Source: Microtetraspora sp. NBRC 16547 (GTDB lineage: Bacteria; Actinomycetota; Actinomycetes; Streptosporangiales; Streptosporangiaceae). From it: a DNA stretch of 64,000 nt. Within the stretch, counting starts at the first letter, position 1, and each line of letters opens with the position of its first letter. Made by a program: the position numbers and the translations under genes. Under the pieces are notes generated by a model. It saw only the letters and a list, made by a program, of their open reading frames with translations, searched no databases and was not told the origin of the DNA. Location: positions 62,001 to 126,000 of the forward strand of contig NZ_BSSE01000007.1 in assembly GCF_030268965.1 (NCBI RefSeq), in the 5' to 3' direction. Below are positions 5,799 to 51,505 of this stretch, in pieces.

Positions 5799-8700
5799 GA
5801 ACGAGCCTCCTGTCCGGCCATCTCGGCGATGACCAGTCGTTCCACTTCGGCGGCGTAGTCGGCGAGCACGGGATGGTCGAACAGCAGGCGCACGGCCAGG
5901 TCGCAGGCGAGCGCCTCGCGCAACCGGACCGTCACCCGGGTGGCCAGCAGCGACGTGCCGCCGAGCGCGAAGAAGTCGTCACGCGCCCCGACCAGAGGGA
6001 TCCGCAGCACCTCCTGCCAGATCTCGGCGGTGAACTCCTGCATCGGGCCTTCCGGCGGGGTGTGCGGCGCGGAGGCCACCTCGACGCCTTCCAGAGCGCG
6101 CCGGTCGAGCTTGCCGTTGGCCGTGCGGGGGAGCGTGTCGTGCGCGGCCCACCGGCGCGGCACCATGTAGCCGGGCAGCCGGTCCCGGGCGTACTCCTCC
6201 AGCTCGGTGAATCGTGCTTCGCCGCGCCAGACGACGTGGCCGATCAGGTGCGCGTCGGGACCGGTCGTGGCGACGACGGCGAAATCGGCGACGGCCGGGT
6301 GCGCGCGCAGCACGCTGTCGATCTCGCCCAGCTCGACGCGGTATCCGCGTACCTTGACCTGTCCGTCCCTGCGGCCGACGAAGTCGAGCACCAGCCCGCC
6401 CGCGCCGTCCGAGATCCAGCGCACGATGTCGCCGGACCGGTAGCGCCGCGCGGAAGCGGCTTCCGCGCCGACGTCGGCGGCCGAGAGACGAGCGGGCTCG
6501 GCGGCCGTGGCTTCGGGGTCGGGGGCTTCGGGACCGGCGGCTTCGGAATCGGGGACGAACGCGGCGGCGGACAGCTCGGGGCGTCCGCGATAGCCCCGGG
6601 CCACGCCGGGACCGCCCAGCCACAGCTCACCGGGCGCACCGGGCGGGAGCAGCCGGCCGAGCGGATCGACAACATAGAGCCGCTCGCCGGGGATCGGGTG
6701 GCCGATGGGCACGCTGTCCCCGACCGGCCCGGTCACCGGATGGAAGGTGGAGGCCACCGTCACCTCGGCCGGGCCGTACCCGTTCCAGAGCTTCCCGGCC
6801 CGCGCCTGGAGCTCCCGCGCCAGCGTGGAGTCGAGCAGCTCGCCGCCGGTCAGGACTCGCATGCTGGTACGGCCCCGCCAACCCGCCTCCACCATCAGCC
6901 GCATCCGGCTCGGTGTGGTGAACACGAGGGTGACCCCGGCAGAGTCGCAGAGCTCGGCGAGCGCCCGGCCGTCGAAGGAGGTCGCGGTGTCGGCCATGAC
7001 CACGCGGGCCCCGGCCGTCAGCGTGGCCCACAGATCGAACGCGGAGATGTCGAACACCAGCGGAGCCACGGCCAGCACGGCGTCGTCCCCGGTCATCCCC
7101 GGATCGGCCTGGATGGACGCGACGAACGCGGCCAGGCCGCGATGAGTGATCTCGATGCCCTTCGGGCGTCCGGTCGAGCCCGAGGTGAAGATCACGTAGG
7201 CGATGCCGTCGGGATCGACCTCCGGAATCTCGCCGCTCGGCACCGCCGTCAACGCCTCCGCGTCGAGGACCGTCACGCCGTCGAGCGGTGCGATCGCGGC
7301 GTGCGCCTCGTCACCGAGCGCGAGCACCCGCCGTACCCCGCCGTCCTCGGCGATCGCCGCCAGCCGCATGGCCGGCAGGTCGGGGTCCATCGGCACGTAC
7401 GCGGCTCCCGCCCGCAGCACGCCGAGCAGGACAGCGGGCAGGCGGTGGTCGCGGGGCAGGCTCACGCCGACCGGCTCCTGCGCGGTGACACCCGCGGCGA
7501 CGAGTCCCGTGGCGACCTTGGCGGAGTTCTCCTCCAGTTCGCCGTAGGTCAGCCGGTTCCCGGCTGCCTCGACCGCGATCCGGTTCCGGTCCTGCGCGAG
7601 GATCGCCTCCACGATCGTGGCGGGCGGGCGGACCTCCGCTCCGGTCCCCGCCGCGAGCAGGGCCGTACGCTCCTTTTCGGAGATCAGCCGCAGCGCGGAG
7701 ACCGGCGTGCGCGGGTCGTCCAGACCGTGTTCAAGCGCGTGGAGCAGCGCGTCGACGACCCGCTCCGCGTCGGCCGCGCCGAAACGCGAGGTGGCGTACT
7801 CGACCTGCAGCTCCGGCCCCTCCGCGGTGGCGTTGACCAGGACGGTCAGCTCCGCCACCGCGCCGCCGCAGTCCAGCTCGCCGGCCAGTTCGATCCGGAT
7901 GGTCCCGCTTTCCGGGCCGCTCTCCCGGCCGGTGTGGCCGCGCTCCGGGGCGACCTCACGTACGGTGGGCACGTCCTCGGGCTGCACCGACAGCACGATC
8001 GGCAAGGGACTGGCCCCCGGAGGGCGGGGCACCGCGCCGGAGACCGCCGACCCGGCCTGCTCCTGGTGGGCGAGCGCTGCCGTGATCGCCGCGCCCGCCG
8101 CGGTCACCAGGTCTCCGAACGCCGGATCGTCGCCGAACCGCACCGGGATCGGCAGCACGCCGAGCAGCGGTCCCATGATCCGGTCCAGTCCGGGCCGGTC
8201 GCGTTCGGCCGCGGTCAGGCCGATCACCGTCTCGGCGCGGCCGGTCAGGCCGCCGACCACGGTGGAGAGCGCGGCCAGGTGAACCGCCGCCGGGGTGACG
8301 CCATGGCGGGCGGCGACCCGCCGGATCCGCGTTTCGAGCGCGGGGTCGATCGGCCGCCTGAGCCGGCGCCCCTCGTGCGTCGCCGCGTGCTCCGCGCCCA
8401 GCAGGTCGTACGGCACGGCCGCGTCGGCGAGCGCCTCCCGCCAGTGGGCCGTCTCGCGCTCCAGCGCCGCCTCCCGGCGCTCCTCCTCACGCAGTGCGAC
8501 GTCCCCGAGCTGGAGGTCCGGCTCCGGCACCGGCAGCCCGGCGAGTCCGGCCGCGAGCTCGTCGATCAGGACCCGCGTCGACCAGCCGTCGGAAGCGATG
8601 TGATCCGTGATGACGATCAGCTCGGCCTCGGCCGTTCCCGTCCAGGCGAGGACCGCGCGGAGCAACGGCACATCCTCAGTCAGATCGAACGGGGTCGCCG

Positions 8701-36710: not shown

Positions 36711-37871
36711 GTGTTCGATGTGAAGCTGGTGGTGCAGGTGAGGCTCCGGCCGACGCCCGAGCAGGCGGCGGCGCTGGAGGCGACGCTGCGCGCCTGCAAC
36801 GACGCCGCCAACTTCGCCTCGATGACCGCGTTCACAACCGGCGACCGGCGCGAGTACGCGCTGCGCAAGCACACCTATCGCGAGGTGAAAGCGCGCGGGT
36901 TGGGGGCGCAGGCCGCCCAGCATGTGATCAAGAAGGTCGCCGACGCCTACACCACACTGAAAGCCAACATCCGGGCCGGGAACCTGGGACCGGGAGGCTC
37001 CCGGCGCCGTACGCGGGCCGAGAGTAAACCGATCGCCTTCCGCGCCGATGCCGCGCAGCCGTTCGATGACCGGTGCCTGTCCTGGGACCACACCGCCCAC
37101 ACGGTGTCGATCTGGACCACGGCCGGCCGGGTGCGCAATGTCGCGTTCACGGGGTCGGCCGACCAGCTCAAGACGCTCGCCTTCCACCGGAAGGGCGAAT
37201 CCGACCTGGTCTGCCGGGACGGCATGTGGTTCCTGTACGCGACCTGCGAGATCCCTGATGTTCCGGTCACCGAACCCGACGGGTTCATAGGGGTGGATCT
37301 GGGCATCGCCAACATCGCCACCACCAGCGACGGCGCCCGCCACTGCGGTAAGGGCCTGAACGCGGTCCGCCACCGCAACCGGGAGCTACGCCGCCGGTTG
37401 CAGGCCAAGGCCACCAGGTCCGCCAAACGGCTGCTGAAGAAGCGCCGCCGCAAGGAGGCGCGGTTCGCCGCCGACACTAATCATCGCATCGCCAAACGCA
37501 TCGTGACCGAGGCAGAACGCACCGGACGCGGCATCGCCCTGGAAGACCTGGGCGGCATCCGTGACCGGGTACGGCTCCGCAAGCCCCAGCGGGTCACGCT
37601 GCACTCGTGGAGTTTCCACCAGTTGGGGAGCTTCATCGTCTACAAGGCGGCCCGGCACGGGGTCGCCGTGATCCATGTGGATCCGGCCTACACCTCCCAA
37701 ACCTGCTCGGCCTGCGGGCATGTGGACAAGGCCAACCGGCCGGGCCAGGCAACCTTCTCCTGTACGTCGTGCGGCTTCGCTGAGCACGCCGACGTCAACG
37801 CGGCCCGCAACATCGCCTCGCGCGGTGTCGCGGGTTGGGCAGTGAGTCACGCTGCCGACGACGCGGCCTGA
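36711..37871 (+). CDS. tnpB: TnpB, RNA-guided transposon endonuclease
   Basis: 386 aa. RuvC residues are all present: D196 in GFIGVDLGIANIATTSDG, E278 in GIALEDLGGI and D361 in HADVNAARNIA. The zinc ribbon is CSAC (332-335) and CTSC (351-354). The N-terminal half has the wedge/REC-like LRPTPEQAAALEATLRACND. TnpB cleaves DNA matching a guide transcribed from the element's right end next to a short transposon-adjacent motif, promoting retention of the element. GTG start at 36711. With no lesion seen it is probably active. Confidence 0.93.
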   Translation: MFDVKLVVQVRLRPTPEQAAALEATLRACNDAANFASMTAFTTGDRREYALRKHTYREVKARGLGAQAAQHVIKKVADAYTTLKANIRAGNLGPGGSRRRTRAESKPIAFRADAAQPFDDRCLSWDHTAHTVSIWTTAGRVRNVAFTGSADQLKTLAFHRKGESDLVCRDGMWFLYATCEIPDVPVTEPDGFIGVDLGIANIATTSDGARHCGKGLNAVRHRNRELRRRLQAKATRSAKRLLKKRRRKEARFAADTNHRIAKRIVTEAERTGRGIALEDLGGIRDRVRLRKPQRVTLHSWSFHQLGSFIVYKAARHGVAVIHVDPAYTSQTCSACGHVDKANRPGQATFSCTSCGFAEHADVNAARNIASRGVAGWAVSHAADDAA

Positions 37872-38573: not shown

Positions 38574-39299
38574 ATGACGGCATCCAGTGCGCTGGTGCTC
38601 GGAGGAGCCGGAGGAATCGGCGCGGCGGTGAGTGGTCGGCTCGCGGAGACACACGCGCTGGCCATCGGCTACCTCCATCACGTCGACCGCGCCGAGTCCC
38701 TCGCGGAGCGGCTCCGGGCGGCGGGCCGGACGGTCGCCCTCGTGAAGTCCGACGCCACCACGGATGAGGGCGTCGTGGAGGCATTCGACGCCGCGGAGGC
38801 GCTCGGCCCGCTGCGTGTGGTGGTGCACTGCGTCGGCGGCTGGGACTACCCCCGCGTCACCGAGCTCACGCAGGAGTCCATCGACGCCACGCTGGCCCTG
38901 AACCTCCGCTCCGCGCTGCTGACCCTGCGCGAGGCCGCGCGCCGGATCGTCGATGGGGGCCGGGTCGTCCTGCTCTCCAGCGCCGCCGCCGCGGTCGCCC
39001 CCGCCAGGCAGAGCACGTACGCCGCCGCCAAGGCCGGCCTGGAGGCCGCGGCCAGAGTCGCCGCCAAGGAGGTCGCCGGCAGGGGCGTCACCGTCAACGT
39101 CGTACGCCCCGGCGCGACGGACACGCCGCTACTGCACGAGACCACATCACCCCGCGCCATCGAGGCGATGGCCGGGTCCAACGCCATGAAGCGGCTCGGG
39201 ACCCCCGACGACATCGCCGGCGCCGTGCTCATGCTCTGCGCCGAGGAGTCCGGTTGGGTCACCGGGACGGTCATCGACGCCACAGGAGGACTGCGATGA
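38574..39299 (+). CDS. Short-chain dehydrogenase/reductase of the box cluster
   Basis: 241 aa SDR. Cofactor loop LGGAGGIGAAV (GxxxGIG), NLRSALLTLREAARR helix, catalytic Ser in VVLLSSAAAAV, YAAAKAG (Tyr, Lys), RPGATDTPLL and C-terminal GTVIDATGG. The usual NNAG is VGGWD. First gene of a four-base-overlap operon with a 3-hydroxyacyl-CoA dehydrogenase and the BoxD-type dehydrogenase, so action on a ring-cleavage CoA thioester is likely (inference). ATGAGGAATCGTC precedes the ATG and includes a GAGGA ribosome binding site. Confidence 0.88.
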   Translation: MTASSALVLGGAGGIGAAVSGRLAETHALAIGYLHHVDRAESLAERLRAAGRTVALVKSDATTDEGVVEAFDAAEALGPLRVVVHCVGGWDYPRVTELTQESIDATLALNLRSALLTLREAARRIVDGGRVVLLSSAAAAVAPARQSTYAAAKAGLEAAARVAAKEVAGRGVTVNVVRPGATDTPLLHETTSPRAIEAMAGSNAMKRLGTPDDIAGAVLMLCAEESGWVTGTVIDATGGLR

Positions 39300-40192
39300 C
39301 CGATGCCGACAGCACGGGCGCCGTCACGGGAAGCCCCCGGCTGCCCGTCCGCTGCGGCGTGGTGGGCGGCGGCCGGATGGGCGCCGGCATCGCGCACGCC
39401 CTGCTCCTCGCCGGGTGCGACGTCACCCTCGTGGAGCGGGACGCCCAGTCCGTGACGGCCGCCAGGGGCCGGGTGGAGCGCGCCGTCGAGGGCAGTGCGA
39501 AGCGGGGCCAGGTCGACGACGCGGGGACGGTGATGGCCCGGTTGGCCGCCGTGGCCGACTACGGAGATCTCGCCGGGTCCGGCCTCGTGGTCGAGGCGGT
39601 GCCCGAGGACCTCGACCTCAAGCTCGTCACCCTGCGCGCCGTCGAGGACGCGGTGTCCCCCGACGCGGTCATCGCTTCCAACACCAGCAGCATCTCGCTC
39701 GACACGCTCGCCCAGGCGCTCGCCCGGCCCGAGCGGCTCCTCGGGTTCCATTTCTTCAACCCCGTACCCGCGAGCAAGCTCGTCGAGGTGGTCATCGCCG
39801 GTGCCACCGACCCCGCACTGCGTGCGCGGGCCGTCGCCTGGGTCGAGCAGATCAAGAAGACCGCGGTGGTCGTCAAGGACGCGCCCGGCTTCGCCAGCAG
39901 CAGGCTCGGAGTCGCCCTCGGGCTCGAGGCGATCCGCATGGTCGAAGCCGGCGTCGCCTCCGCCGCGGACATCGACGCCGCGATGACGCTCGGCTACGGC
40001 CATCCGACCGGGCCGCTGCGGCTCACCGACCTCGTGGGCCTTGACGTCCGCCTTGGCATCGCGAGGTACCTGGAGCGCGAGCTCGGCCCGCGGTTCGCGC
40101 CGCCGAAGCTGCTCGTCGAGCTCGTCGAGCAGGGGCATCTGGGGCGTAAGACCGGCAAGGGCTTCTACGACTGGAGCGAGGATCAGGCATGA
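39296..40192 (+). CDS. 3-hydroxyacyl-CoA dehydrogenase
   Basis: 298 aa, PaaH/HbdA type. NAD-binding GVVGGGRMGAGIAHALLLAG (about 18-37), the SNTSSISLDTLA loop, catalytic H-E pair in LLGFHFFNPVPASKLVEVV with the downstream VKDAPGFASSRLG, and C-terminal GYGHPTGPLRLTDLVGLD. Oxidises 3-hydroxyadipyl-CoA-like intermediates to the 3-oxo form in the lower box pathway. ATG overlaps the SDR stop (ATGA) behind AGGAGG. Confidence 0.93.
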   Translation: MTDADSTGAVTGSPRLPVRCGVVGGGRMGAGIAHALLLAGCDVTLVERDAQSVTAARGRVERAVEGSAKRGQVDDAGTVMARLAAVADYGDLAGSGLVVEAVPEDLDLKLVTLRAVEDAVSPDAVIASNTSSISLDTLAQALARPERLLGFHFFNPVPASKLVEVVIAGATDPALRARAVAWVEQIKKTAVVVKDAPGFASSRLGVALGLEAIRMVEAGVASAADIDAAMTLGYGHPTGPLRLTDLVGLDVRLGIARYLERELGPRFAPPKLLVELVEQGHLGRKTGKGFYDWSEDQA

Positions 40193-41757
40193 GCACCGAG
40201 ATTCTGCAGAGCTACCTGGCAGGCGCCTGGCGGGCCGGCGACGGCCACGGCGTCCCGGTTGCCGACGCGGTGACCGGGGAGACCGTCACCCGGGTGACCA
40301 GCGACGGGCTCGACCTCGGCAGGGCGGTCGACTTCGCGCGCCAGACCGGCGGTGCCGCGCTACGTGAGCTGACCTTTCCGCAGCGGGCCGCCGCGCTCAA
40401 GGCGGCCGCGTTGGCGCTGGAGGCGCGCAAGCAGGAGTTGTACGACCTCTCCACGCGGGCCGGCGCGACCCGGCGCGACGCCAAGGTCGACGTCGACGGT
40501 GGCATCGGCACCGCGCTGGTCTACGCCGGCCTCGGCCGCAGGGGCCTCCCCGACAGCACGGTCATCGTCGAGGACGACCCGGTGCCGCTGGGCAAGGGGG
40601 GCACTTTCGCGGGTCAGCACATCCTCACCACCCCGCGCGGCATCTCCCTGCAGATCAACGCGTTCAACTTCCCGGTCTGGGGCATGCTCGAGAAGCTCGC
40701 GCCCGCCCTGCTCGCCGGCCTGCCGACGATCGTGAAGCCGGCGACGCCCACGGCGTACATCGCCGCGCGCGCGGTGCGCATCATCGAGGAGTCCGGCGCC
40801 CTGCCGCCGGGGGCGATTCAGCTGGTCTGCGGCGGCATCCCCGGCCTCTTCGACCTCCTCGGCGGACAGGACCACATCGGGTTCACGGGTTCGGCGGCCA
40901 CGGCCGCCCGGCTGCGGGCCGACGCGGCCGTCACCCGGCGCTCGGCGCGGTTCAACGCCGAGGCCGACTCGCTCAACTGCTCGGTACTCGGTCCGGACGC
41001 CGTTCCGGGGCAGCCGGAGTTCGACCTGTTCGTCGGCGCGCTGGTCACCGAGATGACGGTCAAGGCGGGGCAGAAGTGCACGGCCATCCGCCGCGCGTTC
41101 GTCCCGGCGGCCCGGATCGACGCGGTGTCGGAGGCGATCGAGGCCAGGCTCGCCGAGGTCGTCGTGGGGGCCCCGGGCGCGGACGGCGTGACCATGGGCG
41201 CGCTCGTCGGCCTCCCGCAGCGTGAGGACGTCCGCGCGGCCGCCGCGCGCCTCGCCTCGGCCGGGCGCGTCGTCCATGGCGATCCGGACGCGGTCGAAGT
41301 GGTGGGAGCGGACGCCGAGCGCGGCGCCTTCCTCTCGCCGCTGCTGCTGCGCGTCGACGACGTGGACCGGCCGGAGCCCCACGAGGTGGAGGCGTTCGGC
41401 CCGGTGAGCACACTCATGCCGTACGGCGACACCGCGCGGCTGCACGATCTGATCGCCCGTGGAGAGGGGTCCCTGGCCGGCTCCGTGGTCTCCTACGACA
41501 CGGATTTCGTCTGTGAGGTCGTGCTCGGGGCGGCCGCGCATCACGGCCGCATCCTCGTCCTGGACCGCGACAGCGCCGTGGAGTCCACTGGCCACGGCAC
41601 GCCCATGCCCCAGCTCGTCCACGGCGGCCCCGGCCGTGCCGGGGGTGGCGAGGAGGAGGGCGGTCTGCGTGCCGTTCATGCCCACCTGCGGCGTACCGCC
41701 GTACAGGGCGGCCCTGCCGTCCTGGAGGCGATCGTGGGCGCCCGGTCGCGGAAATAG
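40189..41757 (+). CDS. boxD: 3,4-dehydroadipyl-CoA semialdehyde dehydrogenase (BoxD-type)
   Basis: 522 aa aldehyde dehydrogenase of the PaaZ-N/BoxD type. Key parts: [22 protein letters not shown], the IVKPATPTA Lys, [28 protein letters not shown] (Glu) and catalytic Cys in [15 protein letters not shown]. Oxidises the ring-opened semialdehyde made by BoxC to the CoA-bound acid. There is no hydratase (MaoC) domain, which separates it from full-length PaaZ. ATGA overlap with the upstream gene. The substrate follows from gene context. Confidence 0.88.
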
Positions 41758-41777
41758 TCGACAGAATATATGCAAGA

Positions 41778-41796
41778 ACGCAAAAGAAGTGTAGAA
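41778..41796 (+). promoter_or_regulatory. Box-cluster motif, copy 2
   Basis: ACGCAAAAGAAGTGTAGAA, 60 nt upstream of boxB, within an 80-bp gap that is markedly AT-richer than its surroundings. Matches copy 1 at 16 of 19 bases. boxB is therefore likely to have its own promoter in addition to read-through from boxD. Confidence 0.55.
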
Positions 41797-41837
41797 CGTC
41801 AAAGAGTAGCAGTATCCCTAGCGACAGGAGAGCAGTG

Positions 41838-43316
41838 ATGAGCACCGACTCTCGTACCGGCACCGCACCCTTGCCCACCGGACCGCTCAGCCAGATCGAC
41901 TACAGCGAGCGGATCCCCAACAATGTCGACCTGGCCAGTGACCGCCGCCTGCAGCGCGCGCTCGAGGGATGGCAGCCGAAGTTCCTCGAGTGGTGGAAAC
42001 AGCTCGGCCCGGCCTTGCCGACCAAGGACGTCTACCTGCGCACCGCGATCGCCGTGGGCCGCGACGGCTGGGCGCATTTCGACCACGTGCCCATGGACCA
42101 GTACCGCTGGGGCATCTTCCTCGCGGAGCGGGACCCCGACCGGAAGGTCAACTTCGGCAAGCACAAGGGGGAGCCGGCCTGGCAGGAGGTGCCGGGCGAG
42201 CACCGCGCCGACCTGATGCGTCTCATCGTCGTCCAGGGCGACACCGAGCCGGCCTCGGTGGAGCAGCAGCGCACCCTCGGCAACACCGCCCCGAGCATCT
42301 ACGACCTGCGCAACCTGTTCCAGGTCAACGTCGAGGAGGGCCGCCACCTCTGGGCGATGGTCTACCTTCTGCACGCCTACTTCGGCAGGGAGGGGCGCGA
42401 GGAGGCGGAGCAGCTGCTCAAGCGCAACTCCGGCGACCTCGACGCTCCGCGCATCCTCGGCGCGTTCAACGAGGAGACCACTGACTGGCTGCAGTTCTTC
42501 ATGTTCACGTACTTCACCGACCGTGACGGGAAGTACCAGCTCGGCACCCTCAAGGAGTCGGCCTTCGACCCGCTGGCCCGCACCTGTGAGTTCATGCTCA
42601 AGGAGGAGGCCCACCACATGTTCGTCGGCACCACGGGTGTCCAGCGGACCGTGGAGCGCACTGCCGAGCTGATGAAGCAGCACGACACCAAGGACATCTT
42701 TCCGCACGGCGGCATCCCGCTGGAGGTGATCCAGAAGTACCTCAACTTCCAGTTCTCGGTCTCCATGGACCTGTTCGGCTCGGAGCAGTCGACCAATGCC
42801 GGCAACTACTACTCCTCGGGCCTGAAGGGCCGCTGGATGGAGGCCCGGCGTAAGGACGACCATGTCCTGCTCGACGCCACCCGCGAGATGAACTACGTCG
42901 AAGACGGCCAGATCAGGACCAAGACGGTGCCGCTGCTGAGCGCGCTCAACCTCGACCTGCGGGACGAGTACGTCGCCGACTGCGCCAACGGCGTCCGCCG
43001 CTGGAACCAGGCGCTCGAGGACGCCGGACTGCCGGAGCGTCTGTACCTGCCGCACGAGGGCTTCAACCGCAAGGTCGGCGTGTACGCGGGCCATCGCGTG
43101 AGCCCGCACGGCGAGGTCGTCGACGAGGCCACCTGGGTGGCCCGTGTCGACGAGTGGCTCCCCAGCGCCCAGGACCGCGAAGACGTGCGGGCGCTCATGA
43201 TCCCGGAGTACGAGTACGGCAAGTTCGCCGGCTGGATCGCCCCGCCGCTGACGGGCACCAACGAGCAGCCGGTCGAGTTCGACTACGTGCACCTGGCAGA
43301 CGAAGGACTCGCCTGA
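41838..43316 (+). CDS. boxB: Benzoyl-CoA 2,3-epoxidase, BoxB
   Basis: 492 aa, full length. BoxB is the di-iron oxygenase that converts benzoyl-CoA to 2,3-epoxybenzoyl-CoA with O2 and reduced ferredoxin. All six iron ligands I recall for Azoarcus BoxB (E120, E150, H153, D211, E240, H243) are met with a constant offset of 17: E137, E167 and H170 (VNVEEGRHLW), D228 (YFTDRD), E257 and H260 (LKEEAHHMF). ATG 41838 follows ACAGGAGAG by 5 nt. Divergent arrangement follows: the PaaX-type regulator is convergent with it downstream. Confidence 0.97.
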   Translation: MSTDSRTGTAPLPTGPLSQIDYSERIPNNVDLASDRRLQRALEGWQPKFLEWWKQLGPALPTKDVYLRTAIAVGRDGWAHFDHVPMDQYRWGIFLAERDPDRKVNFGKHKGEPAWQEVPGEHRADLMRLIVVQGDTEPASVEQQRTLGNTAPSIYDLRNLFQVNVEEGRHLWAMVYLLHAYFGREGREEAEQLLKRNSGDLDAPRILGAFNEETTDWLQFFMFTYFTDRDGKYQLGTLKESAFDPLARTCEFMLKEEAHHMFVGTTGVQRTVERTAELMKQHDTKDIFPHGGIPLEVIQKYLNFQFSVSMDLFGSEQSTNAGNYYSSGLKGRWMEARRKDDHVLLDATREMNYVEDGQIRTKTVPLLSALNLDLRDEYVADCANGVRRWNQALEDAGLPERLYLPHEGFNRKVGVYAGHRVSPHGEVVDEATWVARVDEWLPSAQDREDVRALMIPEYEYGKFAGWIAPPLTGTNEQPVEFDYVHLADEGLA

Positions 43317-43422
43317 CCGCCCGCGTGGCGGTGCCGGGCGCGCGTCTGTTCACCGCCGCGCTCGCGCTGGATCTGGAACTGAGGAGCGGGGCGGCCGTAC
43401 GCCCATCGGGCGGGCGAGGTGC

Positions 43423-44322
43423 TCAGCTGCGGGCGCCGGCCTCGGCACTCATGCGATCCCATTCGTCCTGTGCCCGCCGATGCCAGCGGTCGTGCTGATC
43501 GTGGAACGTGGCGGCCGCTCGCGGGCCGGGCCAATCGTGCTGGAGCAGCTCGGCGGGGAGGTCGGGGTCCAGGAACGGGAAACGCCGCCATTCCTGGATG
43601 AGCTGAACCTGGTTGACGAACGCCTCCCGGTCTGACGCGGCCGACAGCCCCTCGAAGCGGTCGATGAAGCCGACATAGCGCTGCTCGACGTCGTCGAGGT
43701 CCCAGGCTGACATGAGCAGCTTGGCGGGGTCGCCGATCCCCGCCGACGGGCCGGTCCACCCGAAGGCCCGGTCGTCGAGGTCGAGCTCGGTGATGATCGC
43801 GCGGACGGCGTCCTCCTTCGAAGCGTCAGGGATGATCCACAGACCGGGGGCGGGAGAGCCGAGGCCGAGCCAGGTCAGCCTGGTGCGCAGGCGGTGCCGC
43901 AGCTGGCGCTGGGTCTCCGGCACTCCCACCGTGACGACGAGCCAACGGCCGTCCCATCCGTGTGGCTTGCGCATGAAGCCGTAGATGCGCTCGGTGCCCT
44001 CCTGGAGCAGGCGTTCCCCGGCCCGCGTCAGATTCCAGCGCACCTTTCGGCCGTGCCGGGTCGAGGTGAGCAGCCCCTCGGCGGCGGTCCGGGACAGCGC
44101 CTGGCGCGCGGACTTCTCCTCGACGCCGAGCGCGCCCAGCGCGTCGACGAGGGTGCCCGTCCAGACCTCGCCCTGGCGGGGGAGGACGAACTCGCCGAGG
44201 ATCGTCAGCAGGAGCGAGCGCGCGCTCGGGGACGTCTCCCGATGGCGCTCGGAAGGCTCCCGCCGCCCCTCGGAAGGTTCGGCCGCCGGACCGGCCGGCT
44301 TGCGCCTCTCGCGCGTGGCCAC
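43423..44322 (-). CDS. PaaX-family transcriptional regulator
   Basis: 299 aa. A charged 35-residue leader precedes the winged helix SARSLLLTILGEFVLPRQGEVWTGTLVDALGALGVEEKSARQALSR, ending TSTRHGRKVRWNLTRAG; the central PaaX domain has PHGWDGRWLVVTVGVPETQR and LGLGSPAPGLWIIPDA; the C-terminal part contains WDLDDVEQRYVGFIDRF. PaaX represses phenylacetyl-CoA catabolism in other bacteria; here the effector is probably benzoyl-CoA or a later CoA ester (inference). GTG 44322 chosen for AGGAGAG five nucleotides upstream. Confidence 0.9.
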   Translation of the reverse strand: MATRERRKPAGPAAEPSEGRREPSERHRETSPSARSLLLTILGEFVLPRQGEVWTGTLVDALGALGVEEKSARQALSRTAAEGLLTSTRHGRKVRWNLTRAGERLLQEGTERIYGFMRKPHGWDGRWLVVTVGVPETQRQLRHRLRTRLTWLGLGSPAPGLWIIPDASKEDAVRAIITELDLDDRAFGWTGPSAGIGDPAKLLMSAWDLDDVEQRYVGFIDRFEGLSAASDREAFVNQVQLIQEWRRFPFLDPDLPAELLQHDWPGPRAAATFHDQHDRWHRRAQDEWDRMSAEAGARS

Positions 44323-44419
44323 ATCACTCTCCTGTCGCTCGACACCCTCGGTGAGGCGCATTCTCCCAGGTGGGAACCTCTGCGCGGTAACCGTTGGCAA
44401 GGCGTGCGGGATCCGCCTC

Positions 44420-44452
44420 ACGTCGAGAATAAGTACTACAAATACTTGACGT
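44420..44452. promoter_or_regulatory. Composite dyad between paaX-like gene and boxC
   Basis: Within the 195-bp divergent gap, AAGTA-CTACAAA-TACTT (44431-44447) is nested in ACGTC/GACGT (44420-44424 and 44448-44452), the left arm interrupted by six bases. The gap is AT-rich and must hold promoters for both directions. Candidate binding site for the PaaX-type regulator. Confidence 0.45.
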
Positions 44453-44517
44453 AAGACTCTGAATGCGTCGACTATTGTTCGATATAAGGTCCCTCCCCAA
44501 CCCCCACGGAGTGCGCA

Positions 44518-46248
44518 TTGACCGTCACCGAGAACGTTGAAACCGTGCACAGCAGGGCGGATGCCGAGCCGGCTACGACGGTGACGCCTCCGGTGGTCGG
44601 CTTCGTGACATCCCCTGAGCGGTACCGTCACTGGAAGCTCGAGGTGGACGGAGAGGTGGCCACCGCCACGCTGACCGTCGACGAGCAGGGCAGCCTCGTC
44701 CCCGGCTACGAGCTCAAGATGAACTCCTACGACCTCGGCGTCGACATCGAGCTCTACGACCTCGTGCAGCGGCTCCGCTTCGAGCATCCCGAGGTCAAGT
44801 CGGTCGTCATGACCGGCGGCCTCGAGCGCATGTTCTGCGCCGGGGCCAACATCCGCATGCTGGCCCAGTCCACCCACGCGTGGAAGGTGAACTTCTGCAA
44901 GTTCACCAACGAAACCCGCAACGGGATCGAGGACGCGACCGCCAACTCCGGCCAGACCTGGATCGCCGCGCTCAACGGGACCGCGGCCGGCGGAGGCTAC
45001 GAGCTCGCGCTCGCCTGCGACCAGATCGTCCTCGTCGACGACGGCTCATCCGCCGTCTCCCTCCCCGAGGTTCCGCTCCTCGGCGTGCTCCCCGGCACCG
45101 GTGGCCTGACCCGCGTCGTCGACAAGCGCCACGTCCGCAAGGACCGCGCCGACCTCTTCGCCACCAAGTCCGAGGGCTACCGCGGCCGCACCGCCGTCGA
45201 GTGGGGCCTGGTGGACGCCGCCGTGCCGCGCAACGCCTGGAACGAGGAGATCGGCAGGCGTGCGCGGGAGGCGGCGGCCCTGTCGAAGCGCCCGTCCGCC
45301 GCCAAGGGCGTACGGCTGACGCCCCTCGACCGCACGGACGACGCCGACACCATCACCTACCCGTACGTGTCGGCGAAGATCGACCGCGCGGGCCGCCGCG
45401 TCGAGATCACGGTCGAAGGCCCGAAGGACGCCCCGCCCGCCGACGCCGCGGCCGTGCTGGCGCAGGGTGTCGACTACTGGCCGCTGGCCCTGACCCGCGC
45501 GCTGGACGACCTGATCCTGCACCTGCGCACCAACGAGCTGGAGCTCGGCATCTGGGTGTTCCGTGCCGTCGGCGACACCGAGAAGGTCCTGGCTTACGAC
45601 GCCCAGCTCCGCGAACTCGCCGACGACTGGTTCGTGAACGAGGTGTCCCAGTTCTACAAGCGCACGCTCAAGCGTCTCGACGTCACGAGCCGCAGCCTCA
45701 TCGCCGTCATCGAGCCCGGCACCGCCTTCGCCGGCCTGCTGCTCGAGCTCGCCCTCGCGTCCGACCGTCAGTACATGCTCGAGGGCATCTACGAGGACCG
45801 CGATCCCGACGCCGCGCCGGCCGCCATCCAGCTGAGCGAGTCGAACAACGGCGCCTTCCCGATGGGCAACGGCCTCTCCCGCCTGGAGTCCCGTTTCTGG
45901 GGCAAGCAGGACGACCTCGACACCGCCCGCGGCAGGATCGGTCAGCCGCTCGACGCCGCCGCCGCCGTCGACGTCGGTCTGGTCACCCTGGCCCTCGACG
46001 ACATCGACTTCGAGGACGAGTTGCGGATCGTGCTCGAAGAGCGGGCCTCACTGTCGCCCGACGCGCTGACCGGCATGGAGGCCAACCACCGTTTCGTCGG
46101 TCCGGAGTCCGTGGAGACCAAGATCTTCGGCCGGCTGACCGCCTGGCAGAACTGGATCTTCATCCGTCCCAACGCCTCCGGCCCGAATGGCGCCCTGCCA
46201 CGCTACGGCTCCGGCCGCAAGGGCGACTACGACCTGAAGCGAGTGTGA
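44518..46248 (+). CDS. boxC: 2,3-epoxybenzoyl-CoA dihydrolase, BoxC
   Basis: 576 aa, the long crotonase-type enzyme that hydrolyses epoxybenzoyl-CoA to the C6 semialdehyde CoA plus formate. N-terminal crotonase region with GLERMFCAGANIRMLAQS and AALNGTAAGGGYELALACDQ (oxyanion glycines), VPLLGVLPGTGGLTRVVDKR, then a second region with FYKRTLKRLDVTSRSLIAVI, AGLLLELALASDRQYML and the C-terminal FGRLTAWQNWIFIRPNA. TTG start at 44518 with CGGAG about 7 nt upstream. Confidence 0.96.
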   Translation: MTVTENVETVHSRADAEPATTVTPPVVGFVTSPERYRHWKLEVDGEVATATLTVDEQGSLVPGYELKMNSYDLGVDIELYDLVQRLRFEHPEVKSVVMTGGLERMFCAGANIRMLAQSTHAWKVNFCKFTNETRNGIEDATANSGQTWIAALNGTAAGGGYELALACDQIVLVDDGSSAVSLPEVPLLGVLPGTGGLTRVVDKRHVRKDRADLFATKSEGYRGRTAVEWGLVDAAVPRNAWNEEIGRRAREAAALSKRPSAAKGVRLTPLDRTDDADTITYPYVSAKIDRAGRRVEITVEGPKDAPPADAAAVLAQGVDYWPLALTRALDDLILHLRTNELELGIWVFRAVGDTEKVLAYDAQLRELADDWFVNEVSQFYKRTLKRLDVTSRSLIAVIEPGTAFAGLLLELALASDRQYMLEGIYEDRDPDAAPAAIQLSESNNGAFPMGNGLSRLESRFWGKQDDLDTARGRIGQPLDAAAAVDVGLVTLALDDIDFEDELRIVLEERASLSPDALTGMEANHRFVGPESVETKIFGRLTAWQNWIFIRPNASGPNGALPRYGSGRKGDYDLKRV

Positions 46249-46251
46249 TCC

Positions 46252-47871
46252 ATGAGCGCCGTGGAGTTCAACGCGGGTTCCTGGCTGACCCACCGCCACG
46301 TCGAGGAGGGACGTGGCGACCGGGCCGCGGTTCGCGGCGGCGCCGGGCTCACCTATGCCGAGCTGTCGGACCTCGTCGGGATCGTCACCGCCGGCCTGCG
46401 CTCTCTCGGGTTACGGCGCGACGACCGCGTCGTGTTCGTCACCAACGACGACGTGCCCATGTTCACCGGGATCCTCGCCGCCTTCTGCGGCGGGTTCGTG
46501 GCCGTACCGGTGTCGACCATGCTCGGGGCCAGGGAGCTCGGTGAGATCATCGCCGACTCCGGCGCCTCGGTGGTCGTGGTGAGCGCCGAATACGAACCCC
46601 AGATCGAGCAGGCGGTCGCCATGGCGCCTGAGCTGCGCCACCTGGTGTGCGACGGGGACGCCGCGTTGACCGCTCCGGCCTGGGCCACGTCGAGCACGTG
46701 GGCCGAGCTCGTCGCGGCGGGGGAGCGGGAGTCCGTCGAGGGGCGGGCGCCCGCCGCCACGTCGGAGGACTCGTGGGCCCTGTGGCTCTACACCTCCGGC
46801 ACCACCGGATCGCCCAAGGGCGCCATGCACCGCCACGCCAACATCCGGCACGTCTGCGAGACCTACGGCGACCAGGTGCTGGGCATCCGGCCGGACGACG
46901 TCTGCTTCTCAATCGCGAAGCTCTTCTTCGCGTACGGCATCGGCAACTCGATGTTCTTCCCGCTCTCGGTCGGCGCGGCGACCGTTCTCGAACCGCGCCG
47001 TCCCAGCCCCGCGGTGGTGGCCGAGCGGGTGGCCGCCGACCGGCCGACGCTGTTCTTCGGCGTCCCGACCTTCTACGCGGCGCTGGTCGTCAGCGACCTC
47101 CCCGACGACGCTTTCGCGCCGGTGCGGCTCGGCGCGTCGGCTGGAGAGGCGCTGCCGGCGGCGCTCCAGGAGAGGTTCACCCGGCGCTTCGGCGTGGAGA
47201 TCATCGACGGCATCGGCTCCACCGAGGCGCTGCACATCTTCCTGTCCAACCGGCCCGGCGAGATCCGTCCGGGCACCACGGGCCGCCCCGTGCCGGGCTA
47301 CGACATCGAGCTGCGCGACGCCGACGGCCAGAAGGTGCCCGACGGCGAGCCGGGATCGCTCTACGTCCGCGGCGAATCCATCGCCCTGGGCTACTGGCGC
47401 CGAGCGGACGCCAGCCGCACCGTCTTCGCGGGGGAGTGGCTCAGCACCGGTGACACCTACGTGCGGACCGTGGACGGGTTCTACGCCTGCATGGGCCGCA
47501 GCAACGACCTGCTCAAGGCGGGCGGCATCTGGGTCTCGCCGGCCGAGGTCGAGAGCCGGTTGCTGGAGCACGACGCCGTCGCGGAGGCCGCGGTGGTCGG
47601 CGTCTCCGACGCCCACGGGCTCGACAAGCCGGTCGCGTGCGTCGTCACCAGTGGCGAGGTCACGGCCGAGGAGCTCGTCCAGTGGTGCCGCGACGGCCTC
47701 GCCTCGTTCAAGCGTCCCCGCGAGATCGTCTTCGTCGACGCGTTGCCCAAGACCGCCACCGGCAAGATGCAGCGCTTCAAGGTCCGTCAGATGGTGGCGG
47801 ACATCACCGCGGCACCGTCCGCGGACCACACCGCCGAGGCGGCACCCACCAGCGAAGGAGCGCACCAGTGA
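46252..47871 (+). CDS. Benzoate-CoA ligase
   Basis: 539 aa of the benzoate-CoA ligase group (BclA/BadA-like). ATP loop LWLYTSGTTGSPKGAMHRH, family-specific FSIAKLFFAYGIGNSMFFPL and GIGSTEALHIFLSNRPGEIRPGTTG, GDTYVR, and the C-terminal lysine in LPKTATGKMQRFKVR. Commits benzoate to the pathway as benzoyl-CoA. It starts 3 nt after the boxC stop and its own stop overlaps the next gene (GTGA). Confidence 0.95.
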   Translation: MSAVEFNAGSWLTHRHVEEGRGDRAAVRGGAGLTYAELSDLVGIVTAGLRSLGLRRDDRVVFVTNDDVPMFTGILAAFCGGFVAVPVSTMLGARELGEIIADSGASVVVVSAEYEPQIEQAVAMAPELRHLVCDGDAALTAPAWATSSTWAELVAAGERESVEGRAPAATSEDSWALWLYTSGTTGSPKGAMHRHANIRHVCETYGDQVLGIRPDDVCFSIAKLFFAYGIGNSMFFPLSVGAATVLEPRRPSPAVVAERVAADRPTLFFGVPTFYAALVVSDLPDDAFAPVRLGASAGEALPAALQERFTRRFGVEIIDGIGSTEALHIFLSNRPGEIRPGTTGRPVPGYDIELRDADGQKVPDGEPGSLYVRGESIALGYWRRADASRTVFAGEWLSTGDTYVRTVDGFYACMGRSNDLLKAGGIWVSPAEVESRLLEHDAVAEAAVVGVSDAHGLDKPVACVVTSGEVTAEELVQWCRDGLASFKRPREIVFVDALPKTATGKMQRFKVRQMVADITAAPSADHTAEAAPTSEGAHQ

Positions 47872-48890
47872 GCGCCCCCGAAGTCGACCTCCTCATCATC
47901 GGGGCCGGGCCCGTCGGCCTGTTCGGCGCCTATTACGCCGGCGTGCGCGGCCTCAGGACCGCCGTCGTCGACTCCCTGAGCCAGGTCGGCGGCCAGGTCA
48001 GCGCGATGTACCCGGAGAAGCAGATCTTCGACATCGCCGGCTTCCCCGCCGTCTCCGGCCGCCGGCTCGTCGCCAACCTGGTGGAGCAGGCCGCGCAGTA
48101 CGACCCGACGTACCTGCTCGGCCAGGAGGCGCAACGGCTCGACCGTGTCCCCCGCGACGGCGGGCCCGACCTGCTCGTCGTCAAGACCAGCGCCGGAACC
48201 GAGATCGCCGCCGGAGCCGTCGTCGTCACCGGCGGGATCGGCACCTTCACGCCGCGACCGCTGCCGGCCGGGGAGGAATTCCTCGGCAACGGCCTGGAGT
48301 ACTTCGTGCCGGACAGCGCGGAGTACGCCGGAAAGGACGTCGTCATCGTCGGCGGGGGCGACAGCGCGGTGGACTGGGCGCTGATGCTCCACCCCGTCGC
48401 CAGAAGCGTGACGCTCGTGCACCGCCGCGCGGCGTTCCGGGCCCACCGCGGCTCGGTGGAGCGGCTCAGGGCCTCGCCCGTCGAGGTCATCGTCAACGCT
48501 CAGGTCACCGCCACCACCGGCGACGGCCGGCTGGAGCGGATCGAGGTCGCCGTCACCGGCGAGGAGGGAAAGCGCACCCTGCCGTGCGAGAAACTCGTCG
48601 CGGCCCTGGGCTTCACCGCCAACCTCGGGCCGCTGCGCGAGTGGGGCATCGACCTGCACGACAACCGCCACCTCGTGGTCGACTCCGCGATGCGGACCAA
48701 TGTGCCCGGCATCTACGCGGCCGGTGACATCACCGACTACGACGGCAAAGTCCGTCTGATCGCGGTCGGTTTCGGTGAGGTGGCGACCGCGGTCAACAAC
48801 GCCGCGGTGCACATCGATCCGAATGCCCAGCTATTCCCGGGCCACTCGACTGACAACCCGGCATCGGCGCCGCAGCCGGTCCCCGTCTGA
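47868..48890 (+). CDS. Thioredoxin-reductase-like ferredoxin-NADP+ reductase
   Basis: 340 aa flavoprotein. FAD motif LLIIGAGPVGLFGAYYAGVRG (about 8-28), NADP motif VVIVGGGDSAVDWALML (about 157-173), and C-terminal FAD contact GIYAAGDITDYDGK with GFGEVATAVNNAAVHI. The redox-active CxxC of thioredoxin reductase is absent, which fits the TrxR-like FNR class. It feeds electrons to the adjacent ferredoxin and so to BoxB, taking the place of BoxA (inference from context). GTGA overlap with the ligase behind GAAGGAG. Confidence 0.9.
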   Translation: MSAPEVDLLIIGAGPVGLFGAYYAGVRGLRTAVVDSLSQVGGQVSAMYPEKQIFDIAGFPAVSGRRLVANLVEQAAQYDPTYLLGQEAQRLDRVPRDGGPDLLVVKTSAGTEIAAGAVVVTGGIGTFTPRPLPAGEEFLGNGLEYFVPDSAEYAGKDVVIVGGGDSAVDWALMLHPVARSVTLVHRRAAFRAHRGSVERLRASPVEVIVNAQVTATTGDGRLERIEVAVTGEEGKRTLPCEKLVAALGFTANLGPLREWGIDLHDNRHLVVDSAMRTNVPGIYAAGDITDYDGKVRLIAVGFGEVATAVNNAAVHIDPNAQLFPGHSTDNPASAPQPVPV

Positions 48891-48935
48891 GGCGGCAGCC
48901 CGACAGCTCCGAGTTCTCGCACATCAGGAGATCCA

Positions 48936-49274
48936 ATGCCGTACGTCATCGCCGCCCCGTGCATCGACGTCATGGACCAGTCATGCGTGGAGGAATGCCC
49001 GGTCGACTGCATCTACGAGGGGGACAGGAAGCTTTACATCAACCCCAAGGAGTGCATCGACTGCGGTGCCTGCGAGCCGGTGTGCCCCGTTGAGGCGATC
49101 AGCCAGGACAGGCGCGTCGCCGCGGAGCACGTCGACTTCGTCGAGGACAACCGCCGGTTCTTCGTCGAGACGCTGGCGGGCCGCGACGTGCCGCTCGGCG
49201 CGCCCGGAGGCGCGCACAAGACGGGGCGCATCGGCGTGGACACCCCCATGGTCGCGGACCGTCAGGAGACGTGA
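48936..49274 (+). CDS. fdxA: 7Fe (3Fe-4S/4Fe-4S) ferredoxin
   Basis: 112 aa FdxA-type ferredoxin. Cluster ligands: C9, C17 and C21 in APCIDVMDQSCVEECPVDC and the second set in KECIDCGACEPVCPVEAI. A 40-residue C-terminal extension (FVEDNRRFFVETLAG...) is as usual for actinobacterial FdxA. Placed directly after the reductase, it is the likely electron donor to BoxB. AGGAG about 8 nt before the ATG. Confidence 0.95.
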   Translation: MPYVIAAPCIDVMDQSCVEECPVDCIYEGDRKLYINPKECIDCGACEPVCPVEAISQDRRVAAEHVDFVEDNRRFFVETLAGRDVPLGAPGGAHKTGRIGVDTPMVADRQET

Positions 49275-49276
49275 GC

Positions 49277-50161
49277 ATGCTCGACGGCACCCCGCTCATC
49301 GACGCGCACGTCCATGTGCCGCTGCTGGAGACGCTGCGTCCCGCCTGGCTCCAGTGGGCGCGCGACTTCGGAGTCGACGGGATCATGGAGGACGCCTGGG
49401 ACGAGGACGGCAGGCCGCTGCCGGCGCGCCTCGACGAGATCTTCGCCGCCCAGGGCGTCGACGTCGCACTCCTGTTCTGCGAATACAGCCCGAAGGCGAC
49501 GGGCATGCAGGCCTTCGAGGACCTGCTGTCGATCGTCGAGTACAACCCGGCGCGGTTCCGTCCGGTCGCCAACGTCAACCCGCACCTGCACTTCCCGATC
49601 GCGGCCGAGGTACGGCGGCAGCTTGACCTCGGGGCCGCCGCGCTGAAGCTCCACCCGGTGCACGGCGGGTTCCGCTGCGACGACGCGGCGCTCTACCCCG
49701 CCTACCACGTGCTCGAGGAGCGGGGCGTGCCGCTCGTCGTGCACTGCGGCACGAGCTCGTTCCCCGGTTCGGCGAACGAGAACGCCGACCCGCGCTTCCT
49801 CATCCCGGTCGTGCGGGACTTCCCGGGGCTCAACGTCGTGCTGGCCCACGGCGGGCGCGGCTGGTGGTACGACTCGGCCGCCTTCCTGGCGCTGTCGAAC
49901 GACACGGTGTGGCTGGAACTTTCCGGGCTGCCGCCGAAGCGGCTCCCCGAGTACTACGCGAACTATGACCTCGTCCGCCTTGCCCGCCGGTGGATCTTCG
50001 GCACCGACTGGCCCGGTGTGCCGGGCACGGCCGCCAACGCGCGAGCCGTCGCCGGCCTGCTGCCGGACGACGTCGCCGCCGCCGTGCTCGGCGGGAACGC
50101 GATGCGGGTGTACGCCGGGTTGCCGCCGATTCCGTCCGCGGCCCCGTTCACGCGCGGGTGA
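49277..50161 (+). CDS. Amidohydrolase-2 family metal-dependent hydrolase
   Basis: 294 aa TIM-barrel protein. The HxH metal site is in LIDAHVHVPLLE (about residues 8-19), later ligands in LKLHPVHGG, PLVVHCGTS, VVLAHGGRGWWYD and IFGTDWPG. The family includes decarboxylases and ring or lactone hydrolases. Co-transcription with the box genes suggests removal of a pathway by-product, not shown by sequence. ATG 49277 chosen because AGGAGA lies 7 nt upstream; the GTG at 49271 is too close. Confidence 0.85.
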   Translation: MLDGTPLIDAHVHVPLLETLRPAWLQWARDFGVDGIMEDAWDEDGRPLPARLDEIFAAQGVDVALLFCEYSPKATGMQAFEDLLSIVEYNPARFRPVANVNPHLHFPIAAEVRRQLDLGAAALKLHPVHGGFRCDDAALYPAYHVLEERGVPLVVHCGTSSFPGSANENADPRFLIPVVRDFPGLNVVLAHGGRGWWYDSAAFLALSNDTVWLELSGLPPKRLPEYYANYDLVRLARRWIFGTDWPGVPGTAANARAVAGLLPDDVAAAVLGGNAMRVYAGLPPIPSAAPFTRG

Positions 50162-50164
50162 CCG

Positions 50165-50737
50165 ATGGCCGTCTACGCGCTTGGGCCCAAGGTGCCCCGA
50201 ATCCATCCGGACGCCTACGTGCACCCGGATGCCGTCGTCATCGGCGACGTCACCATCGGCGCCGAGTCGTCGGTATGGCCGACCGCGGTGCTGCGAGCAG
50301 ACTTCGGGCGCATCGAGATCGGTGAACGCACCTCCATCCAGGACGGCACGATCCTGCACACCACCGAGGAGTGGCCGACAGTGATCGGCAGCGACTGCGT
50401 GGTCGGGCACAACGCGCATCTCGAGGGCTGCACGGTCGAGGACCGCTGCCTCATCGGCTCCGGCTCGGTGGTCCTCAACCGAGCCGTGGTGCGCGCGGGA
50501 TCCGTCGTCGGCGCCCAGGCGCTCGTGCCCGAGGACCTGGAGGTCCCCACGCACCACATGGCGCTCGGCGTGCCCGCCCGGACCCGGCCGATGGACAGCG
50601 CGGTGCAGGCCGAGTGGATCGACTACGGCGTACGCGAGTACCTCGGCAACGCCAAGCGCTATCGGCTCGAACTGCGCCGGATCGACCCGGGCAGGGATGA
50701 CCCGGGCAGGATCGACGCGGACGGAACGAGACGATGA
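50165..50737 (+). CDS. Gamma-carbonic anhydrase-like hexapeptide protein (PaaY-like)
   Basis: 190 aa left-handed beta-helix: hexapeptide turns such as VVIGDVTIGAESSVWPTAVLRAD, IEIGERTSIQDGTILHTT, VIGSDCVVGHNAHLEGC, VEDRCLIGSGSVVLNRAVV. Zinc His are H65 and H82; the third ligand position (H82+5) is Glu87, with a His instead at 85. PaaY in the phenylacetate pathway is a related thioesterase that clears dead-end CoA adducts; a similar rescue role here is inferred. It starts 3 nt after the amidohydrolase. Confidence 0.87.
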   Translation: MAVYALGPKVPRIHPDAYVHPDAVVIGDVTIGAESSVWPTAVLRADFGRIEIGERTSIQDGTILHTTEEWPTVIGSDCVVGHNAHLEGCTVEDRCLIGSGSVVLNRAVVRAGSVVGAQALVPEDLEVPTHHMALGVPARTRPMDSAVQAEWIDYGVREYLGNAKRYRLELRRIDPGRDDPGRIDADGTRR

Positions 50738-50770
50738 GTGACGACGGGCCCGCCGTCCGTCCGCCCGGTG

Positions 50771-51505
50771 TCAGCGGCGGCGCTCCAGGAACGCGGTCAT
50801 GCGGTCATGCTTCTCCTCGGTCTCGAACAGTACGGCCTGTGCCACGTCGTCGAAGCGGGGATGCGCGCCAGGCGGAGCGGCGAGGGCGAGCTTCGTCAGG
50901 CGCAACGCCAGCGGCGCGTTCTTGCCGATGCGGTCGGCCAACCGATCCGCGGCGGCCAACAGGTCCTCCTCGGGGACCAGCTCGTTCACCAGCCGGAAGG
51001 CCAGCGCCTCCTCGGCCGACACGACCCGTCCGGCGAGCAGGATCTCCTTGGCGAGCGGTTCGCCGACCAGCTCACGCAGTCGCCAGCATGCTCCGGCCGC
51101 GGCCATGATGCCGAGCCCCGCCTCCGGATTGCCGAAGCGGGCCCGTGGCGTGGCGATGCGGAAGTCGCAAGCGTAGGCCAGCTCGGCTCCACCCCCGAAG
51201 GCCGGACCGTCGACGGCGGCGATCGTGGGCATCGGCAGCTTGGCGATCCGGTCGAACAGGCCGCTGTTGATGCCCGCGAGCGCGTCCTCGCGGCGGCGCT
51301 CGCGCAGCTCGCGGATGTCCGCGCCGGCGGCGAAGACTCCGTCGGCCCCGGTGAGCACCAGCAGCCGGGGCCGCCTCTCGAGCTCGGCGCACACCTCGTG
51401 AAGATCGGCCACCATGGCCGCGTCGATCGCGTTGCGCACGTGAGGACGGTCCAGCCGGACCAGCATCCGACCCTGCCCCTCATCGATCTTCAATGTCTCG
51501 TTCAG
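50771..51505 (-). CDS. Enoyl-CoA hydratase/isomerase family protein
   Basis: About 244 aa crotonase. Oxyanion segments [14 protein letters not shown] and [20 protein letters not shown], then [20 protein letters not shown], where Glu is retained (NPEAGLG). Probably hydrates dehydroadipyl-CoA-type intermediates in beta-oxidation. The annotated start is unusual: TTG at 51493 is 18 nt from the AAGGAG at 51512-51517, while an in-frame CTG at 51503-51505 lies 6 nt from it and gives the more normal N-terminus [20 protein letters not shown]. Transcribed opposite to the rest of the box cluster. Confidence 0.88.

Follow-up and report, generated by a model that had tools for sequence, protein, structure and literature searches.

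The 64,000-nucleotide stretch of the Microtetraspora sp. NBRC 16547 genome analyzed here (the window) carries, at positions 38574-51493, an actinobacterial box gene cluster for aerobic breakdown of benzoate via benzoyl-CoA, in which a thioredoxin reductase (TrxR)-type ferredoxin-NADP(+) reductase (FNR) and a separate ferredoxin, FdxA, probably feed the epoxidase BoxB in the stead of BoxA. In the proposed chain, NADPH would reduce the flavin adenine dinucleotide (FAD) of FNR, reduced FNR would pass electrons to FdxA, and FdxA would deliver them to the diiron center of BoxB, where benzoyl-CoA would be epoxidized; the product would then enter the usual steps of the box pathway, in which BoxC opens the ring and BoxD subsequently oxidizes the semialdehyde. 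We infer this route from the linkage of the genes, from the failure to find BoxA and from the similar kinds of cofactor that BoxA contains, and it implies that the job of BoxA could be done by a flavoprotein unrelated to that of BoxA together with a separate ferredoxin. An alternative electron chain had been put forward in an earlier note on this DNA, and the idea gains support from the absence of BoxA, the recurrent linkage of the two genes, their lineages and the occurrence of similar pairs near other oxygenases.

Gene content of the cluster and absence of BoxA

BoxA combines two Fer4 stretches and a plant-type FAD/NAD-binding reductase part in one chain. No such fused chain is present in the cluster, where FNR and FdxA are two separate genes, and a search of the whole genome, named in the earlier note as a check, yielded no BoxA above the cut-off, the best match to the BoxA model (TIGR03224) scoring 63.5 bits where 459.2 would be needed. 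Nor was BoxA detected above the cut-off in any of 77 related BoxB genomes (0 of 49 and 0 of 28), in which every first-look candidate was scored, while the positive control, a Mycetohabitans plasmid, reached 682.4 bits in the same run. These 77 distinct genomes are the sources of all but one of the 80 BoxB loci described below (L057 is not included) and are actinobacterial, apart from that of L059, which is titled Melainabacteria. Given the best match of 63.5 bits and the uniform result for the related genomes, we reject BoxA elsewhere in the genome as a candidate. Among 396 sampled genomes of the phylum, BoxB was found in four, including that of the window, and BoxA in none at E<=1e-50, a negative weaker than that for the 77 genomes because not all first-look candidates were scored (four per genome among the matches listed). 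In the plasmid collection, BoxA is present in 13 records (Mycetohabitans 9, Cupriavidus 2, Rhizobium 1, Sulfitobacter 1), none of them actinobacterial, and BoxB in 11 (Mycetohabitans 9, Nonomuraea 1, Embleya 1); the four BoxA records outside Mycetohabitans have no BoxB on the same record.

The features of the cluster are as follows (scores in bits; nt, nucleotides):

38574-39299, plus: short-chain dehydrogenase (FabG-like), starting the upstream row; Pfam adh_short_C2, 146.8
39296-40192, plus: 3-hydroxyacyl-CoA dehydrogenase, proposed for the lower pathway; 3HCDH_N 179.3, 3HCDH 106.0; 4-nt overlap with the preceding gene
40189-41757, plus: BoxD-type dehydrogenase; NF008868, 608.2 (cut-off 444)
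41838-43316, plus: BoxB, predicted diiron benzoyl-CoA 2,3-epoxidase; TIGR03225, 744.9 (cut-off 499.1); 613 to the solved BoxB, PDB 3per
43423-44361, minus: PaaX-family transcriptional regulator; PaaX, PaaX_M and PaaX_C each above cut-off
44436-44451, plus: conserved element CTACAAATACTTGACG, 5' of boxC; exact-pattern recurrence across loci
44518-46248, plus: BoxC; TIGR03222, 871.4 (cut-off 712.3)
46252-47871, plus: benzoate-CoA ligase; TIGR02262, 550.7 (cut-off 375.25)
47868-48890, plus: TrxR-type FNR, proposed NADPH-oxidizing donor; 299 to the solved FNR 3lzw, and motifs
48936-49274, plus: FdxA, 7Fe [3Fe-4S][4Fe-4S] ferredoxin, proposed carrier to BoxB; FdxA_Actino NF045480, 150.2 (cut-off 125); 7Fe ferredoxin 2v2k, 111.5
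49271-50161, plus: amidohydrolase_2 family protein, found repeatedly in box clusters; PF04909, 112.3; sole solved relative 3irs, uncharacterized
50165-50737, plus: PaaY-like left-handed beta-helix protein; top NCBIfam match PaaY TIGR02287, 136.8, under the cut-off of 319.6
50771-51493, minus: enoyl-CoA hydratase/isomerase, convergent, proposed for the lower pathway; ECH_1, 164.9

Three of these genes had not figured in the earlier note: the regulator that separates boxB from boxC, and the amidohydrolase and PaaY-like genes directly after fdxA. For the short-chain dehydrogenase, none of the 25 NCBIfam families listed scored above its own cut-off. Past the regulator gene, boxC is followed by the ligase gene after 3 nt, the ligase and FNR genes overlap by 4 nt, FNR and FdxA are 45 nt apart, the amidohydrolase gene overlaps that of FdxA by 4 nt (counted from its first possible start), and the PaaY-like gene follows after 3 nt. 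Because the spacing is so tight, the row from boxC to the PaaY-like gene appears to be laid out as a single transcript.

BoxC, BoxD and the ligase all score above the curated cut-offs, and the cluster thus has these members of the proteobacterial BoxABCD system but not its BoxA. BoxD also exceeds the cut-off of the PaaZ model TIGR02278 (688.5 bits, cut-off 562.8), to which it aligns only over positions 1-506 of 664, so that the protein is without the C-terminal part of PaaZ, as is BoxD. In BoxB, the residues E, E, H, D, E and H, at positions which we take to be the six iron ligands (the numbering of the solved BoxB, transferred via the alignment with 3per), are invariant in all 88 aligned rows, pieces of up to 400 amino acids or with a stop codon having been excluded. 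Both the curated score and the ligands identify the protein as BoxB, a predicted benzoyl-CoA 2,3-epoxidase, and the four assignments of the earlier note (BoxB with six iron ligands, BoxC, ligase and BoxD) all hold.

Its description of the electron carriers, a TrxR-like FNR and a separate 7Fe ferredoxin, is likewise borne out. The best solved relative of FNR is 3lzw, named 'Ferredoxin--NADP reductase 2'; the match to 2zbw, deposited as a thioredoxin reductase, scores 290 bits and that to the next chain so named only 106 bits. The protein contains the FAD and NADPH glycine motifs (GAGPVG and GGGDSA, with HRR), and the redox-active CxxC is absent from it as from all 67 FNR rows. Being nearer to ferredoxin-NADP reductases than to thioredoxin reductases, it is a TrxR-type ferredoxin-NADP reductase, predicted to reduce ferredoxin with NADPH. 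In addition to the match to NF045480, the cysteine pattern of a 7Fe ferredoxin was found in 59 of 59 cluster FdxA rows.

Linkage and lineages of the FNR-FdxA pair

To the 80 BoxB loci, the best 80 of 367 relatives and therefore a sample leaning to the BoxB clade of the window, we applied thresholds of at least 50% identity for FNR and at least 60% for FdxA within the flanks retrieved. Both genes were found in 50 loci, FdxA alone in 7, FNR alone in 3 and neither in 20, nine of which stop at a contig edge. In L037, L042, L043 and L056 the pair lies just beyond the flank and is visible in L119, L122, L121 and L123, respectively, and for L041 FdxA appears in the extended stretch L120. In the 50 loci the two genes are on the same strand throughout and less than 200 nt apart in 49; FNR is on the same strand as, and within 200 nt of, the ligase gene in 48, an adjacency that is kept where boxC precedes boxB (e.g., L061 and L062). 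Among these loci, 11 named families and 20 named genera are represented; a further assignment, to Frankiaceae/Frankia, concerns L051, whose record is titled Nocardia alni.

When 11 loci cut before the cluster end were set aside (L020, L036, L044, L049, L059, L066, L067, L072 and L082 at a contig end, L030 and L039 at a stretch edge), both genes were present in 55 of the remaining 69, in 54 of these as neighbors (the exception is L022 of Kribbella); the proportion of 55 in 69 is slightly flattering because the genomes of two of the loci set aside, L067 and L072, lack this FNR. The latter point weighs against the proposed role of the pair, as do several others. FdxA alone is present in seven of the 69 loci (L028, L032, L040, L052, L055, L060, L073) and neither gene in another seven (L019, L021, L023, L025, L026, L053, L063). 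FNR yielded no match at E<=1e-50 in 15 of 38 BoxB genomes, 22 of which had been picked for showing no FNR near BoxB and three of which have a divergent BoxB, and nothing matching FNR, FdxA or BoxA lies near the divergent BoxB in L102-L104. The genome of the window itself encodes two further FdxAs, one of them in another FdxA-FNR pair, and the FNRs in L108, L111, L117 and L118 stand beside no oxygenase recognizable by eye. Some BoxB genomes are without FNR or without both genes and must rely on a different donor, so the donor can vary and the pair is not strictly required; since it is not universal, the proposed supply is limited to most, not all, actinobacterial BoxB loci.

Some of these loci deserve attention in their own right. 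Those of Geodermatophilaceae (L055, L060, L073) have FdxA in the cluster and no FNR there or genome-wide at E<=1e-50, and offer a natural test of which reductase may substitute for FNR. The BoxB proteins of L102, L103 and L104, from other lineages of the phylum, are about 60% identical to that of the window and are encoded in the order boxC-boxB. The amidohydrolase_2 gene is kept in L019, L021, L023 and L053, where FNR and FdxA are missing, and in the first three of these the ligase gene is missing as well; the product may therefore have a pathway step of its own. Finally, a small protein, assigned to DUF6158 by Pfam in L124, recurs around box clusters and around two Rieske loci with an FNR-FdxA pair (25 of the 80 loci, as well as L112, L113 and L119-L124); it has no match in the window.

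For the phylogenies, pieces covering no more than 85% of the query or containing a stop codon were dropped (67 FNRs and 67 FdxAs were kept and 20 FdxAs then added). In a quick tree of the 67 FNRs, placing the 55 cluster copies takes 2 label changes as against a mean of 11.3 after shuffling, and a tree in which they were held as a single clade was not rejected (approximately unbiased test, p-AU 0.536; the held tree was the better one), so the cluster FNRs are compatible with one box-cluster lineage. In a quick tree of 87 FdxAs, the 59 cluster rows share one side of a branch (Shimodaira-Hasegawa-like approximate likelihood ratio test, SH-aLRT, 84, unstarred) and 16 rows that we labeled housekeeping lie on one side of another (SH-aLRT 90). 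The cluster copies thus appear to fall apart from the housekeeping ones, a separation that is in part built in because the latter were chosen by lower similarity (context was seen for L106, and L126-L140 carry the label by similarity level alone). The stretch before the conserved PGG is about 8 residues longer in cluster FdxA than in the housekeeping form, which is no mark of box clusters because it is common to 11 of 12 other non-housekeeping copies and absent from that of L105.

Alternative donors and pairs beside other oxygenases

The lineage and linkage data bear on an alternative that we consider unlikely, namely that FNR and FdxA, though co-expressed, are redox proteins of general use, helpful but non-specific, while BoxB is reduced by a housekeeping ferredoxin and reductase. 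At least one FdxA-like protein is present in 37 of the 38 BoxB genomes, some of which are, as described above, without FNR or both cluster genes, and a passage of PMC4498308 characterizes the contact of BoxA with BoxB as transient. Non-specific helpers would not readily account for the adjacency to the ligase gene over 11 named families, for the grouping of the cluster FdxA lineage in the tree, or for a row in which NCBIfam and Pfam scans of the cluster proteins identified no oxygenase other than BoxB.

A PaaE-type reductase of phenylacetate metabolism as the feeder of BoxB is far less probable. Of 27 BoxB genomes searched for PaaE, 14 do have it above the cut-off of 420.8 bits, and eight of these are without FNR (G015, G017, G019, G021, G022, G050, G066 and G134; G048 is just under, at 416.7). 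In the genome of the window, however, the best match of this family reaches 246 bits, and among the FNR-less genomes nothing matched at E<=1e-40 in G054, G067, G119 and G346, with only lower-scoring matches in G057 and G061. PaaE is thereby ruled out as a general donor. Least probable of all is a BoxA in another part of the genome that is divergent or was missed by the assembly, the split over 151 contigs being offset by the completeness of 100% and by the lack of BoxA above the cut-off in the 77 further genomes.

Pairs of FNR and FdxA also occur away from box clusters. The second pair in the genome of the window (L105, C3:158000-174000; FdxA-FNR, 57% and 60% identity) has the alpha subunit of a Rieske oxygenase at a distance of 5 kb and a P450 fused to reductase domains at 3 kb; the genes flanking the pair resemble IclR-type regulators by eye. 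Pairs adjoin Rieske oxygenases in L109 and L110 and are separated from them by one or two genes in L112 and L113, the oxygenases having been identified by Pfam in L109, L110 and L112 and by likeness to L112 in L113. In L114 (G071:C135), a PaaA-PaaB-PaaC-PaaD-like set occupies positions 1013-4606, a box-type FdxA (68%) directly follows a hydratase gene of this set, and a TrxR-type FNR is encoded about 7 kb past the set on the same contig (11740-12744). On this contig PaaE gave no match at E<=1e-20; a match of 416.6 bits, slightly below the cut-off, is located on another contig of the genome.

These cases suggest, at what we would call even odds, that FNR and FdxA form a portable cassette for electron supply in Actinomycetota, that oxygenases unrelated to one another have acquired related copies of it, and that in the box pathway it came to occupy the place of BoxA, with BoxB able to accept several donors. 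The oxygenases concerned would be the diiron BoxB, Rieske oxygenases and, perhaps, a PaaABCD-like epoxidase. We set the odds slightly lower than we otherwise would because the L105 pair is near a Rieske oxygenase rather than beside it, the L114 genes are apart, and a near-cut-off PaaE is present in that genome.

Comparison with known systems and upstream element

With the proteobacterial box pathway (boxABC and BoxD; Azoarcus/Aromatoleum evansii, Mycetohabitans), the cluster has in common the ligase, BoxB, BoxC, BoxD and the predicted chemistry, and its BoxB is 62% identical to that of Mycetohabitans, with the iron ligands conserved. It differs in the lack of BoxA, in the additional amidohydrolase and PaaY-like genes, and in having a PaaX-type regulator instead of the XRE-type BoxR described in a passage of PMC10803450. 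The job proposed for FNR and FdxA is that of BoxA, in which electrons go from NADPH via flavin and Fe-S clusters to BoxB; the N-terminal ferredoxin part of BoxA resembles FdxA (E 2e-7), whereas FNR has no similarity to BoxA (best E 3.3). By sequence, the absence of CxxC and the FAD and NADPH motifs, FNR belongs to the same family as the TrxR-type FNRs represented by 3lzw, from which it is set apart by membership in a group linked to box clusters.

According to PMC6208970, a mycobacterial FdxA resembling the M. smegmatis 7Fe ferredoxin takes electrons from FdrA and FprA in vitro. That ferredoxin is likewise placed in oxygenase electron chains but with other reductases, and with P450s rather than a diiron epoxidase; productive transfer from FdxA to a P450 is not described in its passages on the subject. 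A search mostly reaching non-subscription literature found no published description of an actinobacterial box electron chain that lacks BoxA. In a passage of PMC10803450, a box cluster lacking BoxA is considered to impede further degradation, and one on actinobacteria in PMC12008989 names boxBC alone, with boxA unmentioned there. Supply by FNR and FdxA would be a moderately surprising new variant of the known pathway. The absence of BoxA can be read as a broken pathway; if the pair is the donor, actinobacterial benzoate breakdown via benzoyl-CoA may be under-called, and the electron donor of BoxB would differ between lineages, with two unrelated flavoproteins in use.

Upstream of boxC, the exact pattern CTACAAANNCTTGACG recurs in 21 of 145 loci, namely 18 of the 80 BoxB loci, L086, L103 and L090, the last being a copy of the window's own locus; it is missing from the other 62 BoxB loci. 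In all 20 loci measured, including the divergent L103, the pattern is on the boxC strand and stops 11-113 nt short of the boxC match. In the window, CTACAAATACTTGACG is the sole exact match, and three matches are found when 3 mismatches are allowed, a count reached by 14 of 100 shuffles. The element resembles a -35 region with a flanking operator and is possibly the promoter/operator of the row from boxC to FdxA.

Elsewhere in the window, a TnpB/OrfB-type gene upstream of the cluster (36711-37871) hints at past mobility, and a nonribosomal peptide synthetase (5795-10831) contains two adenylation, one condensation and two carrier stretches.

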